This document shows, in pieces, positions 24,826 to 36,436 of a stretch of 64,000 nt of DNA; positions within the stretch are counted from its first letter, which is position 1; each line of letters opens with the position of its first letter. Below the pieces are notes generated by a model. That model did no database searches. It was given only the letters and a program-made list of their open reading frames with translations, and was not told the DNA's origin. Source of the stretch: an archaeon (GTDB taxonomy: Archaea; Thermoproteota; Nitrososphaeria; Nitrososphaerales; Gagatemarchaeaceae); contig JAJYWC010000007.1 in NCBI GenBank assembly GCA_021791695.1, forward strand, positions 1 through 64,000, in the 5' to 3' direction. The position numbers were made by a program, and so were the translations under genes.

Positions 24826-24922
24826 GGGCCGGTAGCTCAGAACCTCGGCGAGAGGTGGGCAGCTTGGCTAGAGCACTCGACTGATAATCGAGAGGTCGAG
24901 GGTTCAAATCCCTTCCGGCCCA
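24826..24922 (+). tRNA. tRNA-Ile(GAT) with ~22-nt insertion in the D-loop
   Basis: GGGCCGG/CCGGCCC acceptor, D-stem GCTC/GAGC interrupted by extra 22 nt, anticodon loop CTGATAA, T-arm. Confidence 0.9.
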
Positions 24923-24973
24923 CCTAAATTATTAAGAGAATCCTTTATCTATTTGCCTTTCTAATGGTGAAAT

Positions 24974-26263
24974 ATGCCTGTTGGGAGCAAATACAAGCAT
25001 CTTCTCGATGACCAAGACGTCAGACGGTGGTACGAGAACCTCGAAGCCAAGTCGGTTATCACAGCGACCGTCTATCTCAGAACGCTTGGGCTATACTCCA
25101 ACCTTGCGAAGACTACGCCCAAGGGAATATTGGCAGAAGCACGATCCAAGAAGTTCAGGGACGAGTTTACCGACTTTATCAGGAGGATGGAGAAGGAAGG
25201 CAAAGCAGGCTCCTACATCGAGCGATTCAAGAAGGTGATTCTCTCTTGGACTTCGTACAACAATCTCGATGTTAAACTCAAAGTGAACATCAAGGGAAGC
25301 TCCGAGACCCCGACGATTGCCACCGAGAGAGTGCCCAGCAAGGACGAATTGTCGAAGATTCTGCGCATGGCATCACCAAGAGGCAGGATCTCGGTCGCGA
25401 TAATGGCGTTCAGCGGTGTAAGACCCGAGAGTCTGGGAGACTACCTTGGCACGGACGGGATAAGACTAGGAGACTTTAGCGAGGCGAAGGTGAGGAATGA
25501 CGGACTTGAGATTGAGAAAGTCCCTACCGTCCTTCTCGTGAGGAGAGCGCTCAGCAAAGCGAGACATCCCTACTTCACATTTGTGAGCAGCGAAGGCATC
25601 ACCTACATCCAAGAGCACCTCAAAGAACGGGTCAAGCAGGGTGAGAAACTTACGCCCGAGAGCCCGCTCCTTGCCTTCGACCCAAGGGGCATCAGGAAGA
25701 ACCAGTTCCTGAGGACGACCCTCGTAACGCGGGATGTCAAGGAGGCAATCCTCAAAGCCGGATTCACCTGGAGACCCTACGTCCTCAGAGCCTATTGCGA
25801 CACAAACATGATAGTGTCCGAGTCGAAGGGCTTCATCTCGCATCCCTATCTTCAGTTCCTGATGGGGCACAAGGGAGACATAGAAGCCAGGTATTCAACT
25901 AACAAGGGCAGGCTCCCTCCCACCATGATCGAAGAGATGAGGGAAGCTTACAAGAAATGCGACTCCCTTCTTTCCACCAAAGCTGAGTCAGCCACCGAGG
26001 AGCAAATCAAGAAGACCTTCAATGAACAATTTCTTCTCGTGGCCGGTTTCAAGAAGGAAGAGTTGGAGAAGATGAAACTCGATGAGATGACAAACGAAGA
26101 ACTTCAGAGCCTAGTCAGGCAAAGACTCATTGGGATGATGACCAACAATGGGTCGAGGCAGAAGGTCATTCCTCTTCAGGAAGTGAAATCATACATCGGC
26201 CAGGGCTTTGAATACGTCGCGTCTCTTCCGAACGACGAGGCGATAGTGAAGATTCCCTTCTGA
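24974..26263 (+). CDS. tyrosine recombinase/integrase
   Basis: GVRPESLGDYL (R), VLRAYCDT, LMGHKGDIEARYS (HxxR..Y region); downstream of tRNA-Ile. Confidence 0.8.
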   Translation: MPVGSKYKHLLDDQDVRRWYENLEAKSVITATVYLRTLGLYSNLAKTTPKGILAEARSKKFRDEFTDFIRRMEKEGKAGSYIERFKKVILSWTSYNNLDVKLKVNIKGSSETPTIATERVPSKDELSKILRMASPRGRISVAIMAFSGVRPESLGDYLGTDGIRLGDFSEAKVRNDGLEIEKVPTVLLVRRALSKARHPYFTFVSSEGITYIQEHLKERVKQGEKLTPESPLLAFDPRGIRKNQFLRTTLVTRDVKEAILKAGFTWRPYVLRAYCDTNMIVSESKGFISHPYLQFLMGHKGDIEARYSTNKGRLPPTMIEEMREAYKKCDSLLSTKAESATEEQIKKTFNEQFLLVAGFKKEELEKMKLDEMTNEELQSLVRQRLIGMMTNNGSRQKVIPLQEVKSYIGQGFEYVASLPNDEAIVKIPF

Positions 26264-26270
26264 CCGGTGA

Positions 26271-27110
26271 TTATTCCGAATAGATACCCTTACCAGACCA
26301 TTCCACCACTCTCCTCGATTTGTACCTGACAATCGGGACGATTTCGCTCTCTTCCAGATGCTTTCTCAAAAAGAGGATTGGGAACCATCCCCATCCTTCT
26401 GCGGAATAGACCGACAGGATGAGGACATAGACCACCTGACCATCGACTCCCCATGCCCTTCCTCCCTCCACGTCAGGTGTCCTAACGAAGGGGACAGGTT
26501 GCTGGCGGGCTGCCCTCTCGTGTGTATCCTCGAGCCGCAGCTTGACGTGTTCGATGACACCCGAATCAGTCTCCCTCCTGAGCGTGCTCTCGTAGTTGGA
26601 GATCTCTCTTGCCATAGGATTAGCTAGCTGCGCCAGTTCCACCCTCGCCGTCTCACCCTGATTCAAGTCGATGCAAGGAATGTCGTGAGGCTGCTGCCAG
26701 TATGCTTGAAACTCTGTTTCGCCGAGGGGAATCACAGCGACTTTAGCCTTGCAGTTTGTCGAAGACTCCTTAGCCACGACATCGGCCAGCAATTGAGTCT
26801 CACGACTGTATCGGCTCATACCGTGGAAGGACCTCCTCAGCCTGAATGTGAATCTGCTCGATTCAGGTCTCTCGAAGAATTCATCCAAGGCATCGTAAGG
26901 GCCATCACAAGGGACGTAGCATGTCTCGCCCGACGCAATCCCGATCTTGCTCAGCGTTCCCCACTTCTCCACCGCTTGACCTAGAGATCTGGACACCGCT
27001 GAGGCTTGGAATCCTTTTCGCGCGAGGTGCAGACCCAGCTCTCGCCTCCTGATTATCCCCTGTCTCACCCCCGCACTCAGCTCCTCGGCTATCGAACCCA
27101 TGACCCTCAA
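26271..27110 (-). CDS. element-encoded protein of unknown function
   Basis: 279 aa ORF convergent to integrase; no family recognised. Confidence 0.5.
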   Translation of the reverse strand: MRVMGSIAEELSAGVRQGIIRRRELGLHLARKGFQASAVSRSLGQAVEKWGTLSKIGIASGETCYVPCDGPYDALDEFFERPESSRFTFRLRRSFHGMSRYSRETQLLADVVAKESSTNCKAKVAVIPLGETEFQAYWQQPHDIPCIDLNQGETARVELAQLANPMAREISNYESTLRRETDSGVIEHVKLRLEDTHERAARQQPVPFVRTPDVEGGRAWGVDGQVVYVLILSVYSAEGWGWFPILFLRKHLEESEIVPIVRYKSRRVVEWSGKGIYSE

Positions 27111-27234
27111 GATTTGACAGGCGCTACGTCAGAATTAACGGTTTTGCTGCCTCATTTAGCGTCCTCAGTAGACATCTTGCGGGAATTCTCGACCGCCTTA
27201 TGAAAATCAAACCACTTTCCTGAATCATGCCAGA

Positions 27235-27420
27235 TTGACGACGACGAAGACCACAGTAGTTGACATTCGACCCCTCAAGACCCTCTCTACCAAGCTTCTT
27301 CCTCCAGAGTCGATGCTGAGGCGCGTCCTTTTGGGCGAAGCGGACGCCATGCCCGCTAGCGACTACGCGTCCAAGCTCGGGACGTGGCTTGCAATCCTTA
27401 GAGAGGAGACTACGAGATGA
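27235..27420 (+). CDS. small element protein
   Basis: 61 aa ORF overlapping start of ATPase gene (ATGA). Confidence 0.4.
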   Translation: MTTTKTTVVDIRPLKTLSTKLLPPESMLRRVLLGEADAMPASDYASKLGTWLAILREETTR

Positions 27421-29363
27421 CCTTCTGGAAGTCAAAGAAGAAGAGGCGACAGGAGGAGGAACGAGAGAAAGCGCTGAGGATACGTCAACAGGAGCTCGAA
27501 GAACGAAGGAAGAAGGAGGCGGCCGAGGAGAAGCGCTGGAAGGAACTGGAATCGAAGTATGGCGTTGACAGAGACGAGATCAAGTATCAGCTGGGCGATT
27601 CGCTCGAATGGATAAACCCCCGTTACCCCAAGTCGCAGAAGCTAACCCCCGGCCACGTCGGGGCAATCGGGCTCGTCAAGATCAACACCGGGAAAAACGC
27701 GGCCGAGGAACCATACGATCAGGATGAAGTCAGGTTCAAGTGGATAAGCGAAGTCAAATACATCGACGGCAAGGAGAACGGGAACGTCTTCACGAGCGGG
27801 GCGTCAGGCGCCGGAAAGAGCAGCCTTGAGCGGCTTCTCCTGCGGAAGATGGCAGCGCAGCAGAAGGTAATCTTCTCTTTCAAGGCGAACGACACCCATC
27901 TCGGAATCGGCTATCCAGTAGCGGACGTGAGCGAACTGCCACCTAATCCCTTCACTGATGTGGACGCTTTCGTAAGCGCCTTCGCGATAGCCTTTCCCAT
28001 CAGCTCGATTGGCATCACGGCCAGCCAGGTTCCCGCTCTCCTCCAGGAGCTGGCCCGTGGTTGCAGCTCCTCGAAGGACTTCGACCGCAGTCTTGAACGA
28101 CGAATTAGGGACACTACGGACAGGGTCCAACTCTCCGCCCTGTTCTTTATTCAGGAACAAATGAAATCCATCGAGCTTCGGAAGGGAGGAGGCGAAGAAG
28201 GTAGGGCAAACCTCATCAACGACGCGATTCACAGCGGCCTCGATATTGTCCTCGACTTCTCAAGATTGTCAGACTCTGCAAAGACGTTCTATGCCGAACT
28301 ATTGCTACGCGGGATATGGAACTGGATGCACTTGCCGACGGAAACCAGCAAAAAGAAACAAATCATCGTGTATGTGGATGAGGCTCACAGACTGACCAGA
28401 GGTACCTTCGAGAAGTATCACTCGATACTGAACGAAATGGCTAGGGAGATAAGGGCTAGAGGAGCGCTCTGGACATCGACGCAGAACTACAGCGACATCG
28501 AAGACGGCATCAGGAACCAGTTCGCGACGCAGTTCGTCTTCAACACGTCGTCAAAGGCAGACCTAGAAGCACTCAGGGCCATCGACCCGATGCTCTCGTG
28601 GCTTGTCTCTGGTCTACAGAAACATTACTTCATAGATGCGAAGGCGAGGTTCATTCATGAGGAGATCACCGTCTACACCTGCACTCCAGCCAAAGAGGAG
28701 AGAAGCGATGATTATGCGCATGCTCCGAAGCTAAGCAGGTCGCTCGTTTCCCCATCCGGACTAACGAAGGGCACTCTCGATGAGTACCGCAAGGAGGTCG
28801 AGGAATCGCTGGAAAACAACGGAGTAGTCTGGGTCTCCGGTCTCGCCGGCACTTTCAGCGAGAAGTATGGGACGGACAAGGATGAGGCGAAGCTCAGGAT
28901 CAAGGACATCCTTGAGAAGCTCGTGAACGGGGACGAGGTCCAGAGGATGAAGTGCGAGCTTGCAACGGGCGAGACCGTCGTCCTCTTCTTTCGCAAGTGC
29001 GAGGGTGAGAACGAGAGCCCTCTCCACAGGTGGATGGTTCAGCGAGCCATCGAGTGCTGCAATAGGGAAGCAGTGATTCACGTGGCTTCCTCTGGGGAGG
29101 CGCTGCCCGACATCGAGTTGAGGGAATGGTTTATCGAGTGCGAGACTGGACTAAAGAAAAAGACTGTCGACCTTGAGGAGCGAATAGGAGGATTGGGCTC
29201 GGTCAAGCCCTTCGCCATCGTAGTGCCAAACGAGGACGTGGAGCAGAGGTACGCTAGGTTCGCGTCCGATAGGGTCGTGTTGACGGCGCTCAAGGGTCTT
29301 TCAGAACGCATCAGGACGGAGCTGAGCGCAACTGAAGATAAGGGAGATCGAAAGCATGGCTGA
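27417..29363 (+). CDS. HerA/FtsK/VirB4-superfamily ATPase with coiled-coil N-terminus and possible C-terminal PD-(D/E)xK-like domain
   Basis: Walker A SGASGAGKSS, Walker B QIIVYVDEAHR, STQNYSDI; C-terminal LPDIELREWFIECETGLKKK. Confidence 0.75.
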   Translation: MTFWKSKKKRRQEEEREKALRIRQQELEERRKKEAAEEKRWKELESKYGVDRDEIKYQLGDSLEWINPRYPKSQKLTPGHVGAIGLVKINTGKNAAEEPYDQDEVRFKWISEVKYIDGKENGNVFTSGASGAGKSSLERLLLRKMAAQQKVIFSFKANDTHLGIGYPVADVSELPPNPFTDVDAFVSAFAIAFPISSIGITASQVPALLQELARGCSSSKDFDRSLERRIRDTTDRVQLSALFFIQEQMKSIELRKGGGEEGRANLINDAIHSGLDIVLDFSRLSDSAKTFYAELLLRGIWNWMHLPTETSKKKQIIVYVDEAHRLTRGTFEKYHSILNEMAREIRARGALWTSTQNYSDIEDGIRNQFATQFVFNTSSKADLEALRAIDPMLSWLVSGLQKHYFIDAKARFIHEEITVYTCTPAKEERSDDYAHAPKLSRSLVSPSGLTKGTLDEYRKEVEESLENNGVVWVSGLAGTFSEKYGTDKDEAKLRIKDILEKLVNGDEVQRMKCELATGETVVLFFRKCEGENESPLHRWMVQRAIECCNREAVIHVASSGEALPDIELREWFIECETGLKKKTVDLEERIGGLGSVKPFAIVVPNEDVEQRYARFASDRVVLTALKGLSERIRTELSATEDKGDRKHG

Positions 29364-29622
29364 TAATAGGCGAGCCGAGGAAAGTGTGTCAAAGACTCTA
29401 GAACTGCTGAAGTCGATGGCGCACTCCTCCGTAACCGATTACTTTGCGGATGGTACGCTAGAGGTAGCCGAGGCGCTCGCGGAGACGCGTAGTCTCTCGT
29501 TGGACGCATACTATGCCTACCAAAAGGGCTGCGAAGATGCGCTCAAGAAGGTCATTCAGTGGCTGGAGATGGACTTGGCCGGAAGGCGTTGCAACGTCTA
29601 TGGTGAGCCACTGGATTCTTGA
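29356..29622 (+). CDS. small element protein
   Basis: 88 aa ORF overlapping ATPase 3' end. Confidence 0.45.
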   Translation: MADNRRAEESVSKTLELLKSMAHSSVTDYFADGTLEVAEALAETRSLSLDAYYAYQKGCEDALKKVIQWLEMDLAGRRCNVYGEPLDS

Positions 29623-29653
29623 TGAAGCTCTCCACGAGATTACGATAAAGCTC

Positions 29654-29890
29654 GCCCATAGCAGCCGCCTCCCTTCGGGCTCGAACTTCGTTTCGTGGCA
29701 AATTCACCCCCTCGCTTCGCTCGCCGTGTCCGTCGCTTCGCTCCTCACGGCCTTCCGCTCACTAGCGTTCGCTCCCTCCCCCCTCTTTGCCCCTCCGCTC
29801 GTTCTTCGCCTCACCCCGCCTTGAAGCGGGGCCGCTCCACTCGCTCCTCCGAAAGGAGCTCGTTTCGCGGGGGTGTCGGCTGCTATGGGC
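29654..29890. repeat. structured non-coding block bounded by 14-bp perfect inverted repeat
   Basis: GCCCATAGCAGCCG (29654-29667) vs CGGCTGCTATGGGC (29877-29890); internal hairpins and repeated TCGCTTCGCTC. Confidence 0.65.
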
Positions 29891-30178
29891 TCGCATAAGA
29901 GGGGGAGGGAAAGAAGGAAGAACTGAGCTCCCTGTGCATAACAAGGCTGTATTCGAAACATACTTTAGTTAGGCCATTTCGTGACAACCATTTCGAAGGT
30001 CGCAAATGAAACGCGGTGGTGACTCTTCCCTCTCCTTGTAGTGGAATCATGACAATAAGAATTCATGCCATCACGGCTGCGAGCAATGTGTCTTCTTTTG
30101 GCGAACCAGAATCTAATCGGGTCCTTTTATGAGGTCCAGTGGTGCAATCGTCGTCAATGAGGTCCCTGCACTTCATCC

Positions 30179-31102
30179 CTATCTTCTGCGCTGCAGAATT
30201 GCGACGCACATTGCTATCACCATGATTAACGCCACGACTGCAAGCACTCCAAAGTAAACCGGGTTCAAGCTCGATGCTGAAGGGCTCGATTGATTAGCTG
30301 TACTAGTGGAAGTTTGAGATAAGGAAGACGAAGGAGATGACATATTAGATGTCGAACTGAGAGTTGTGCCCGGCGTACTTGTGCTCGTTCCGCTGCTACT
30401 AGATGTTGCCGTCGCTTGTGACACGGTGAAGTGAAGGAGCAGAAACTGGCTCCACTCGTCCTCCCCGACTACGGTGTAGGTGCCCGGGGGAAAGGTGATG
30501 GGCGCTGCCGAAATCGACGTACCAGCCCCGCCCGTCCAATACCCTGCTGTAGATTGTCCAACGGATTCGTTTCCAAGAGGAGGGAAAGTCGTGGGGACTG
30601 TGCTCTCTGTACAGGCAAACTGCACGCTGGTATTGTACAATGGAAGAGGCGTCGCCGTTTGAAGATCTTCGAGGCTAAGATTACCGCTGAACATTCCGAA
30701 GGCTAATGATGCCCCGAATGCGCAGGCGTCAGAGCCCGACAGTTCTTCAAGCGAATAGCCCCAACGGTCGGCGTAGGGAACGATGTTTGTGGTGTTGCGG
30801 AGGTTCACAGCAGTGAGTCTTATCGACAAGTTTCCAGCAGGGGAGGATACGGTAGAAAGATTCAGGACAAGACGGAGACCGAGCGACGAATTGGATGTTG
30901 AAGTGGATGTGACTGGGACTTGGATTAGGTGTTCAGGCGATGTTGTTGTCGTGGCGTTCGTGCTTCCGAAGGAGAGTTGATCGAACCCCGCCGCATCGGT
31001 AATGCTGCTGGCATGAGCTGTTGGGACGGTATTAACCATGAGAACGGAGAATACTCCAAGCAACAATATCAAAGCAATTCGGCCACTCATTCCGGAATGC
31101 AT
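30179..31102 (-). CDS. exported Ser/Thr-rich protein with C-terminal TM anchor
   Basis: Signal peptide MHSGMSGRIALILLLGVFSVLMVNTVPTAHA, S/T-rich stalk, terminal TM + RRR. Confidence 0.65.
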   Translation of the reverse strand: MHSGMSGRIALILLLGVFSVLMVNTVPTAHASSITDAAGFDQLSFGSTNATTTTSPEHLIQVPVTSTSTSNSSLGLRLVLNLSTVSSPAGNLSIRLTAVNLRNTTNIVPYADRWGYSLEELSGSDACAFGASLAFGMFSGNLSLEDLQTATPLPLYNTSVQFACTESTVPTTFPPLGNESVGQSTAGYWTGGAGTSISAAPITFPPGTYTVVGEDEWSQFLLLHFTVSQATATSSSSGTSTSTPGTTLSSTSNMSSPSSSLSQTSTSTANQSSPSASSLNPVYFGVLAVVALIMVIAMCVAILQRRR

Positions 31103-31627
31103 TTGGAAGGATGAGGAATCAGCAAATTCGGCGATGGCAGGCATATTCGGTAAGTGTTGAGCAACCAGAATTTAGTCTGCGGGGTAAATTCTTATCTAGG
31201 AAAATTAGCGACAATCAAGACCTGCCTGCTTCGTTAGCAACATGTAATTCCGCACTCATTAGGAAAGCTCGGCATTAGACAATCCGCTTAGAGTCACTCG
31301 ATACTTTGGCGGGAGCGCCTTCAGCACCAAGCTTTCCGCCAGCCTAGCCTAGTCAGTGTGTAGCGTGCACGCCGGTAACAACTCGGAATCAAGATTTTTC
31401 AACTTTCAAGATTCCAGCCAAAGGACGGGTTGAGGTTAGTGCATACTTGACCCTGGCGCTGGACGTATCCGCGTCAGATGTTGGCACCGAGGTCTTGCAC
31501 CCCCTTTTGGCGAGTCTGTATGGTTAGAACCGGACTAAATTGAAGAGGGGTTCCGTAATCAGAATATGCAAGAATCAGGCATTCGGTTTAAGTGCAGGGC
31601 TTCCGCCTCACCAAATAGGCTGTTTGT

Positions 31628-32392
31628 TTGACGATCAGGTTCCCGCGGAAATTGGCCATTCGACGTCTCGCAAAGCGCGCGGGGATTTCTCTCGCTATAA
31701 TTCTTGTTTTGGTGGTAATTGCCGGGTCTGTTGGAACAGGCTTGTTCTTTTTCGCTTCTACTCCTCACAACTCCGCTACAAACCAATTGGGGTCGCCGGA
31801 CGCGGTATCCACAAACGCGGTATCGTCCAGTGCTTCGAGTAGTAGCTCAACCCCCGCATTGGTGTCACCTGGACAGCCACAGACTGTCTTTGGGTTCGTT
31901 GTGAACTCCACCTCAGATACGGTCGCTTCATTCCCGAATGATACGATGATTTGGACCAACCATGTTCTTTCAAGCTCCTCATACGTTGCTGGTATAACCA
32001 CTTCAATAGTGACAACTCCCTCAAGCTCCAAATCAAACGTAATTATCGCGGCCTACATCAACGGAAACTTGGTAGGCGAAGAAAAATACGAGATTGGACC
32101 TCCTGTGTCTCCCAGCAGTAACCCTAGCTATACATTGCCATCGAATTTCACTCAGGCTAACGAGGTAACCGTGCAGGTAGGTTCGACGATACAATCGGGA
32201 TCGACGATTTCAGTAGCAATATGGTGCAGTTGTTCACCCACTATTCATGTTGATAGCAATGACCCTACCGCGCGTGGAACTTACGAATATGCCCTTCCTT
32301 CTACAACTACATCTTTGCCTCAAACATTGCCATCGTCCGCGCAGTCAGCGTCGTCGGCACCAGACTTCTGGGCCTTTAGTCAGGGGCAATAA
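31628..32392 (+). CDS. membrane-anchored exported protein
   Basis: N-terminal TM ISLAIILVLVVIAGSVGTGLFFFAS, S/T-rich extracellular domain. Confidence 0.6.
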   Translation: MTIRFPRKLAIRRLAKRAGISLAIILVLVVIAGSVGTGLFFFASTPHNSATNQLGSPDAVSTNAVSSSASSSSSTPALVSPGQPQTVFGFVVNSTSDTVASFPNDTMIWTNHVLSSSSYVAGITTSIVTTPSSSKSNVIIAAYINGNLVGEEKYEIGPPVSPSSNPSYTLPSNFTQANEVTVQVGSTIQSGSTISVAIWCSCSPTIHVDSNDPTARGTYEYALPSTTTSLPQTLPSSAQSASSAPDFWAFSQGQ

Positions 32393-32405
32393 TGGTGACT
32401 AAGAC

Positions 32406-33527
32406 GTGGAACTAATGATGCTAAGATCAGCCAGAAATGGAAACAGGCTGGCTATTCTGTCGCTGTTCGCGTTGCTGGCATTGATGTTGATGAGCTCTAC
32501 CGTGCGACCTGTTCTTGCCTATTCGGGAGGGGAAGGTAACAGCAACAGTTGGGTAAGCACATCATCCACGGAGTGCCAGAATGGCAATTACTCTCCTGCT
32601 GTGTTAGGCATGGCCTGGGACACCGGCACACCAGTGCTGAGTTCAGATGATAATCAAGGCGTGACCGGTGAATGGTCCTGGCAGACCAATGTTCAGACAG
32701 AGCAGAAACTAACGAGTAGCGGTAATGAAGCTGGATACCAGTACGTTCAGTATGTGCAGAACTACGAACTGACTGACCCATGGCTTGAAGTCTTGCTGCC
32801 ACCCCCGACTAACTATCAGATGGAGGGCGGGCAAACTTCTTGGACAGCTTATAATACCTACTACGTAGGTGGCCCCAGCGCAAGCCTTAATCTGGAGGTA
32901 GAAGCCGATGCTACGTGGAGCAATGGCGTTATCACAGCAGTAACCTATTATCTGTGGGATAATGGAGTCCTTCAAAGCCATTCGATATCCGTCAGTATCC
33001 CGGCCGGATACCAGGCCACTCCCGTCGCGTATCAGAATGTCCTAGTCTCTGTCGGAACTAGCGGCGGTAAGATCTATAGTCCAGTTGCGTTCACGGGAGG
33101 CACTGGCGATTTCTACACTTTTGGCAATTCGCAATATAAGAACACCGCTTGTGTAAGCTGGGGAACCGGTGAGACATCGAACATGGGCTACTACGCATGG
33201 CCAGGATCTTGTAGCAATTGTTACCAAGATTACACCGTAGCAAATGAATACCCAAGTATTGCTGTTCAGTCCGTCGACCAGAATGGCAATCTAATCTATG
33301 GGTACTACACGCAGTTGGATACTACGGGTTACGGATATATTGCTTCTGGATACACGACCTACACGTATAGCGACACGTATGTTACCAACGGCACCTCATA
33401 CTATCTTTACGCGGATAGTTATGGCAGCTGTACATTCAATCACTGGTCGGATGGTAGCGCTAGTGTTCCCAGATTGGTTACGCCCAGTGACGAGATGAGA
33501 CTAACCGCAGTATATGATTGCACTTAG
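32406..33527 (+). CDS. exported surface protein
   Basis: Signal peptide LAILSLFALLALMLMSSTVRPVLA; C-terminal domain CTFNHWSDGSASVPRLVTPSDEMRLTAVYDCT. Confidence 0.65.
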   Translation: MELMMLRSARNGNRLAILSLFALLALMLMSSTVRPVLAYSGGEGNSNSWVSTSSTECQNGNYSPAVLGMAWDTGTPVLSSDDNQGVTGEWSWQTNVQTEQKLTSSGNEAGYQYVQYVQNYELTDPWLEVLLPPPTNYQMEGGQTSWTAYNTYYVGGPSASLNLEVEADATWSNGVITAVTYYLWDNGVLQSHSISVSIPAGYQATPVAYQNVLVSVGTSGGKIYSPVAFTGGTGDFYTFGNSQYKNTACVSWGTGETSNMGYYAWPGSCSNCYQDYTVANEYPSIAVQSVDQNGNLIYGYYTQLDTTGYGYIASGYTTYTYSDTYVTNGTSYYLYADSYGSCTFNHWSDGSASVPRLVTPSDEMRLTAVYDCT

Positions 33528-33583
33528 TCGCCCAAAAATCGGTTAACAATTCGAGCGTAGGATTCGCTTAAATCATTAACTGC

Positions 33584-33599
33584 ATCCCTTCCGGCCCAC
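33584..33599 (+). repeat. attR-like 16-bp copy of tRNA-Ile 3' end
   Basis: ATCCCTTCCGGCCCAC identical to 24908-24923. Confidence 0.8.
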
Positions 33600-36410: not shown

Positions 36411-36436
36411 GAGGGTTCAAATCCCTCCGGGTCCGC
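36411..36436 (+). other. isolated tRNA 3' fragment (T-arm plus acceptor-like)
   Basis: GAGGGTTCAAATCCCTC (same 17 nt as T-arm of tRNA-Ala at 23459) followed by CGGGTCCGC; no 5' half seen. Confidence 0.5.

Follow-up and report, generated by a model that had tools for sequence, protein, structure and literature searches.

A gene within an integrated archaeal element of about 8.7 kb encodes a 648-aa protein, in which a DNA motor of the FtsK-HerA superfamily is followed by a predicted winged helix and a PD-(D/E)xK-like domain. In its build, this archaeal protein resembles a coupling ATPase combined with a MOBC relaxase, and it probably functions in the same manner. By analogy with these systems, the chances appear evenly balanced that it is responsible for MOBC-like mobilisation of small integrative elements in archaea and of plasmids such as pPO1. 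The fused, archaeal, and cross-phylum form of the protein is new; both halves are of known kinds, and such fusions may have been mentioned before. The analysis is based on a stretch of 64,000 nucleotides, termed the window in the following, which sits on contig 56 of a Gagatemarchaeaceae assembly consisting of 1.8 Mb in 77 contigs.

The gene and its mobile element

The open reading frame at positions 27417-29363 of the forward strand is intact, starts with ATG, and comprises 648 codons, which bears out the gene as it was called in an earlier note on this DNA. It is not a chance frame, because full-length homologues are encoded in other genomes, on plasmid pPO1, and on contigs of Thermoplasmata and DPANN archaea. 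An integrase gene follows a tRNA-Ile gene upstream, and the 16-bp sequence ATCCCTTCCGGCCCAC from the 3' end of this tRNA gene is repeated exactly at 33584-33599. The motor gene is therefore located inside an integrated element with the approximate bounds 24908-33599 (~8.7 kb). The element and its target comprise the following features:

24853..24924, forward strand: tRNA-Ile(gat), integration target (ARAGORN)
24908..24923, forward strand: attL core ATCCCTTCCGGCCCAC within the tRNA-Ile 3' end (16-bp exact repeat)
24974..26263, forward strand: tyrosine-type integrase, 429 aa (phrog_1 integrase, E 1.5e-4)
26271..27110, reverse strand: 279-aa protein without significant family match (family scans)
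27235..27420, forward strand: 61-aa protein whose gene runs 4 bases into the motor gene; copies precede two relatives
27417..29363, forward strand: HerA/VirB4-type ATPase - winged helix - PD-(D/E)xK-like protein, 648 aa (ORF, homologues, PDB profile matches, AlphaFold2, Foldseek)
29356..29622, forward strand: 88-aa ORF that shares 8 bases with the 3' end of the motor gene, without family match (ORF list)
30179..31144, reverse strand: 321-aa protein, either cargo or a host surface protein, with signal-like (N-terminal) and TM (C-terminal) segments (sequence)
31628..32392, forward strand: 254-aa protein of cargo or host origin, with a TM segment at the N-terminus (sequence)
32406..33527, forward strand: 373-aa secreted-type protein, last gene ahead of attR (sequence)
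33584..33599, forward strand: attR core ATCCCTTCCGGCCCAC (16-bp exact repeat)

An unoccupied integration site was not found; congeners have the same tRNA gene, and the right flank differs. The contig that carries the homologue of genome G033 (L030) encodes a full-length integrase relative that is 49% identical to the one in the window and has a Phage_integrase match below the cut-off. Upstream of the homologues in L030 and L031, there are copies of the 61-aa protein with 62% and 58% identity, respectively. The 321-aa protein has many homologues across the host family, and a 65% identical copy of the 254-aa protein is encoded in G006. Beyond the element, an 18-bp T-arm-like match to tRNA-Ala at 36411-36428 is possibly an unannotated tRNA or a remnant.

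The N-terminal motor

The assignment of the N-terminal part to a HerA/FtsK-type motor, which had initially been based on the motifs GASGAGKSS and IIVYVDEAH, agrees with profile matches in the PDB and with Foldseek matches. The motifs are located as follows:

27798..27824, forward strand: Walker A GASGAGKSS, residues 128-136 (sequence; G-x-x-G-x-G-K core positions invariant in alignment A1)
28362..28388, forward strand: Walker B IIVYVDEAH, residues 316-324 (sequence; D321, E322, and H324 invariant in alignment A1)

The PDB profile matches comprise HerA-Sir2, STIV B204, VirB4, YjgR HerA, and TdpA, and the full-length model (pLDDT 76) matches DndH-C, HerA, and VirB4 in Foldseek with E values from 1e-11 to 1e-7. 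Walker A, Walker B, and the core of the FtsK-HerA superfamily are all present. The motor belongs to this superfamily, and a narrower label is not justified. AlphaFold2 puts residues 2-48 into a single long helix, in line with the coiled-coil N-terminus that had been proposed.

Two further sets of motor matches bear on functions other than DNA transfer. The family phrog_2666, which is labelled terminase large subunit, matches all eight scanned members with a best E of 1.8e-16, and STIV B204 is among the PDB matches. The protein might accordingly be a virion packaging ATPase with a terminase-like nuclease, encoded by a small provirus with unrecognised capsid proteins. The secreted-type proteins in the same element would suit such a provirus, as membrane-enveloped archaeal viruses also encode secreted-type proteins. 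However, the phrog_2666 match extends only over residues 312-432, which form the shared half of the motor with Walker B, and no capsid-family match was obtained among the scanned neighbours in the window element and its relatives, divergent capsids being possible. In addition, no homologue was detected in phage records or, in searches with the single protein and with profile A3, in IMG/VR viral contigs at the sensitivities used, and pPO1 carries Cdc6 and restriction-modification genes but no virion genes. A packaging function is thus very improbable.

The second set of matches concerns defence. The PADLOC model mad8 matches eight of the eight scanned members (best E 1.7e-15), HerA defence models match weakly, and methyltransferases are encoded near several homologues. 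These findings would be consistent with an antiviral or inter-element defence protein resembling HerA-nuclease or HerA-Sir2 systems. In contrast, neither a mad1-mad7 set nor any other defence partner was found among the scanned neighbours in the window element, where the motor is the only defence-like gene, and the methyltransferases nearby differ in kind and have the appearance of restriction-modification cargo. A role in defence is therefore quite unlikely.

The C-terminal winged helix and PD-(D/E)xK-like domain

Structure prediction with AlphaFold2 for residues 444-648, based on the eight sequences of alignment A6, resulted in a model with a pLDDT of 86.5 and a pTM of 0.81 that contains two domains:

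28776..28994, forward strand: winged helix, residues ~454-526 (AlphaFold2 of alignment A6)
29013..29291, forward strand: PD-(D/E)xK-like domain, residues ~533-625, with H537, D565, E574, E576, and K580 (AlphaFold2, conservation, Foldseek)

The winged helix corresponds to the wHTH-like stretch that the earlier note had placed after residue ~440. It is followed by a core in the order alpha-beta-beta-beta-alpha-beta, consisting of helix 535-548, strands 553-556, 566-568, and 572-575, helix 584-592, and strand 599-603. The stretch HRWMVQ...LKKK, which had been quoted as resembling a PD-(D/E)xK core, opens the first helix of this core. D565 lies ahead of the second core strand and E574-x-E576 on or just past the third, a placement as in PD-(D/E)xK enzymes. 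All 14 aligned members have H537, D565, E574, and E576 without exception, and T577, G578, K580, R589, and N605 are nearly invariant among them; the Micrarchaeota and Nanoarchaeota members have the variant PD...YEIQTTARK.

The predicted topology is PD-(D/E)xK-like and not that of an unrelated fold. Foldseek matches of the C-terminal model in the PDB are weak (none with E < 0.001) and superpositions are poor, with a TMq of about 0.3. Among these matches are VC1899 and the influenza PA endonuclease, two proteins with a PD-(D/E)xK fold. Altogether, the C-terminal half very probably adopts a PD-(D/E)xK-like fold. The canonical active-site lysine is absent, with a glutamate at its position (E574-x-E576), and a conserved lysine is found at position 580, which may replace it. 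As the canonical lysine is missing, the predicted domain is only a putative nuclease. With this qualification, AlphaFold2 topology and family-wide conservation support the original suggestion of a translocase and a nuclease-like domain on one polypeptide.

Relation to MOBC relaxases and other known systems

The best BFVD match spanning both C-terminal domains is gp146 of Bacillus phage G (Foldseek, E 2e-4, prob 0.99), which is a Replic_Relax protein (PF13814, E 4e-25); the second viral structure match of the C-terminal model is an Mrr-type protein. PF13814 is listed as a MobC relaxase family (PMC5357655). MOBC relaxases are related to PD-(D/E)XK proteins, and in TraX of pAD1, a winged helix forms the N-terminal part and a restriction-type active site is backed by mutagenesis (PMC12857230). 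In MOBC relaxases and PF13814 proteins such as TraX of pAD1 and MobC of CloDF13, a winged helix precedes a PD-(D/E)xK-type domain, as predicted for the archaeal protein, and the conserved residues occur in the same order H ... D ... E-x-(D/E). These proteins are also partnered with an FtsK- or VirD4-type ATPase and also located on mobile elements. In contrast to them, the protein studied here is archaeal, has the ATPase fused in one chain, and carries an E-x-E-T-G-x-K signature. It also lacks significant profile similarity, as hhalign of the archaeal domain against ten phage PF13814 proteins gave probabilities < 5%, and PF13814 was not matched in Pfam by any of eight members. Therefore, membership in PF13814 is not claimed. 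Two archaeal PF13814 matches (L099 and L100) were rejected as relatives because only their HTH-like parts align.

In ten of ten phage loci read, and in poppyseed, a PF13814-type gene is located directly downstream of an FtsK/SpoIIIE gene, in most cases overlapping it. The FtsK/SpoIIIE and Replic_Relax pairs of Bacillus and Geobacillus phages thus combine the same two activities side by side but differ in being bacterial, in being encoded by two genes, and in having an FtsK-type motor rather than one of the HerA/VirB4 type. Annotations of the phage homologues of PF13814 include replication initiation as well as relaxation proteins, and these homologues are found beside FtsK genes in phages that need no conjugation. 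This would also suit a replication or maintenance factor, whose wHTH-nuclease end would act at the origin of the element while the motor segregates or resolves copies, with no transfer from cell to cell. In agreement with this, family scans recognised no replication initiator in the window element. However, pPO1 encodes a Cdc6 itself and presumably replicates by a theta mechanism without detectable ssDNA, so that its homologue is not needed as an initiator. A replication or maintenance function is rather unlikely.

Streptomyces TraB and the conjugation ATPases of the VirB4/VirD4 type belong to the same motor superfamily as the archaeal proteins, some of which have two N-terminal hydrophobic segments. 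Streptomyces TraB is not known to carry a nuclease domain. In archaeal HerA-NurA, a HerA-type motor is coupled to a nuclease as in the window protein. HerA-NurA differs in acting in chromosomal repair and in that NurA is a separate protein with an RNase H fold (PMC9905601), whereas the window protein has no HAS-barrel match in a Pfam scan; a nurA-like neighbour was not recognised around the window gene in family scans. ORF1 of pPO1 from Picrophilus oshimae (FtsK-related, COG0433) is homologous over 79% of the window query including the C-terminal domain. In 2011, it was described only as FtsK-related, and the C-terminal domain was not noted (PMC3177234).

Family and distribution

Apart from the window, full-length homologues are encoded in six other genomes of the same order. 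Homologues are also found in two Nitrosopumilaceae-like genomes (G428 and G421), on the 7.6-kb plasmid pPO1, and, according to a genome search with profile A3, in Ferroplasma acidarmanus (Fer1), other Thermoplasmata, Micrarchaeota, and one Nanoarchaeota bin. A single-protein search of genome contigs gave no match, whereas alignment A3 as query did find homologues; alignments A1 and A2 proved too diverse to be used in some pattern searches. In the tree, members from Nitrososphaeria and Thermoplasmata are intermixed, with that of G066 placed beside a Thermoplasmata contig (support 99/98), and the DPANN members form one group. These mixed taxon labels fit with a mobile gene. In G421 (L098 / L038 2565-3440 and 1486-2565, minus strand), the motor gene is broken into two frames that overlap, which may reflect a frameshift or decay.

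Two hydrophobic segments precede the motor in G001, pPO1, Ferroplasma, L066, and L067, while the other members have one or, like the window protein, none. In pPO1, transcription is reported to start within the annotated CDS, past at least the first of the hydrophobic stretches (PMC3177234), which makes the membrane anchor of this protein uncertain. Just past the motor gene of pPO1 and extending into the next ORF, there are dense direct repeats of the GTAAGTA type (L034, 6240-6540), a possible array of binding sites. In two Thermoplasmata loci, a large, divergently transcribed, membrane-anchored surface-type protein with C-terminal zinc-ribbon-like cysteines (L064:7592-9730 and L066:1868-4270) is conserved upstream of the motor gene.

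The hairpin element downstream of the gene

Downstream of the motor gene, comparison with relatives points to a conserved noncoding element, copies of which were located at other loci, on mobile elements from both Nitrososphaeria and Thermoplasmata:

29654..29890, forward strand: conserved structured noncoding element, closed by ~20-nt inverted repeats (sequence comparison with relatives)
29697..29791, forward strand: hairpin GGCAAA-TTCACCCC...CCCCTC-TTTGCC inside the noncoding element (pattern scan, covariation)
Copies of the noncoding element: L034:3727-4010 (pPO1); L069:13417-13700; L097:16753-17050; L029:8364-8606; L032:9349-9500; L033:13100-13312; L098:640-1080

Hairpins with the conserved TTCACCCC...CCCCTC and a stem sequence that differs each time are present twice each in pPO1, L069, and G428 and in G001, G010, and G066; G421 has two looser copies. 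A scan of 0.8 Mb of loci returned none besides the known ones and none in reversed sequence. When 12 hairpin modules were aligned with variable inserts removed, 97% of the cells were paired and covariation was 0.919 compared to 0.164 after shuffling, in an alignment that was assembled by hand and for which the stem helped to recognise some of the modules. A stem-free pattern scan had previously returned 8 of them. Between the window and G010, identity is 79% in the hairpin element, 64% in the motor gene, and 43-51% in the flanks. Rfam contains no family matching within the element. When the whole element was folded as RNA, z was -9.4 in pPO1 and, much closer to zero, -0.2 in the window and -1.2 in G010; folding stability alone is therefore no proof of structure. 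Judged from the aligned sequences, it is the covarying stem that proves the element to be structured.

A scan of 398 genomes from the phylum returned the short-insert pattern in three, and two of these also encode the motor protein. Of 101 relatives, 17 carry the version present in the window, with 24 copies altogether. One of these is a second copy in the genome of the window itself, at C60:44657-44935 (L130), with 81% identity to the window element. This copy (G000:C60:44657-44935) lies beside a second integrase, indicating another integrated element in the genome. The motor protein is absent from all 18 copy loci examined, and in at least 6 of these the hairpin element begins within ~10 bases after the stop codon of an integrase. 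The integrases at L130, L132, L133, L134, L138, and L139 are related to that of the window and have 414-430 aa, with that of L138 cut short by the contig end. The possibility that the hairpin element is exclusive to the motor protein was rejected, as copies occur beside integrases in loci without this protein. The hairpin is thus a cis element of several integrase-bearing elements and not a private partner of the motor. Two pattern matches in IMG/VR (L118 and L119) were rejected, as the hairpin does not form and the protein is missing. The element may act as an oriT-like site, as an origin, as a recombination accessory, or in the form of an RNA.

Proposed function and implications

Packaging, transfer, and defence had all been considered in the earlier note. 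Among these, transfer fits best, because the C-terminal part resembles PF13814/MOBC relaxases in its build and in its partnership with an FtsK-type ATPase, and because the gene is carried by small integrative elements and a plasmid, in none of which capsid genes were recognised. Packaging and defence are less favoured, as no capsid or defence partner genes were recognised among the scanned neighbours. Whereas the reading frame, its motor family, the predicted C-terminal fold with its conserved residues, the location in a mobile element, and the conservation of the hairpin were established directly, nicking, site recognition, and transfer are inferred from the resemblance to relaxases.

As a MOBC-like mobilisation protein, the polypeptide would consist of a hexameric DNA motor of the HerA/VirB4 type fused to a winged helix and a PD-(D/E)xK-like domain acting as the relaxase. 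In several relatives, the motor would be anchored in the membrane via two N-terminal helices, with a coiled coil or nothing recognisable in the window protein. Recognition of a cis site within the mobile element, perhaps the hairpin next to the gene, would fall to the winged helix, and the nuclease-like domain would nick one strand. Subsequently, the motor would pump the DNA through a pore provided by the host or by another element. Such transfer would need a helper, because neither pore genes nor the rest of a conjugation apparatus were recognised within the 8.7 kb element.

In its furthest form, the proposal would be that of an archaeal relaxase in which a MOBC-type PD-(D/E)xK nicking domain, joined to its own coupling motor, acts on an oriT-like hairpin. 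This hairpin would be one conserved between Nitrososphaeria and Picrophilus and present as well on integrase-only elements, which would be mobilised in trans. Taken as a whole, this is doubtful. If true, it would represent a self-contained mobilisation system common to small mobile elements across several phyla of archaea.

According to two publications, conjugative elements of archaea have no known relaxase that can be recognised as such (PMC6563490; PMC9905601), which leaves open how archaeal mobile elements ready their DNA for transfer. Homologues on pPO1 and in Ferroplasma acidarmanus Fer1, both from cultivated hosts, make the question testable, and the hairpin element with stems covarying across phyla is a candidate cis site. 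If the reading as a mobilisation protein is right, the fused protein would be a candidate nicking enzyme of the kind that seemed to be missing from gene transfer in archaea.
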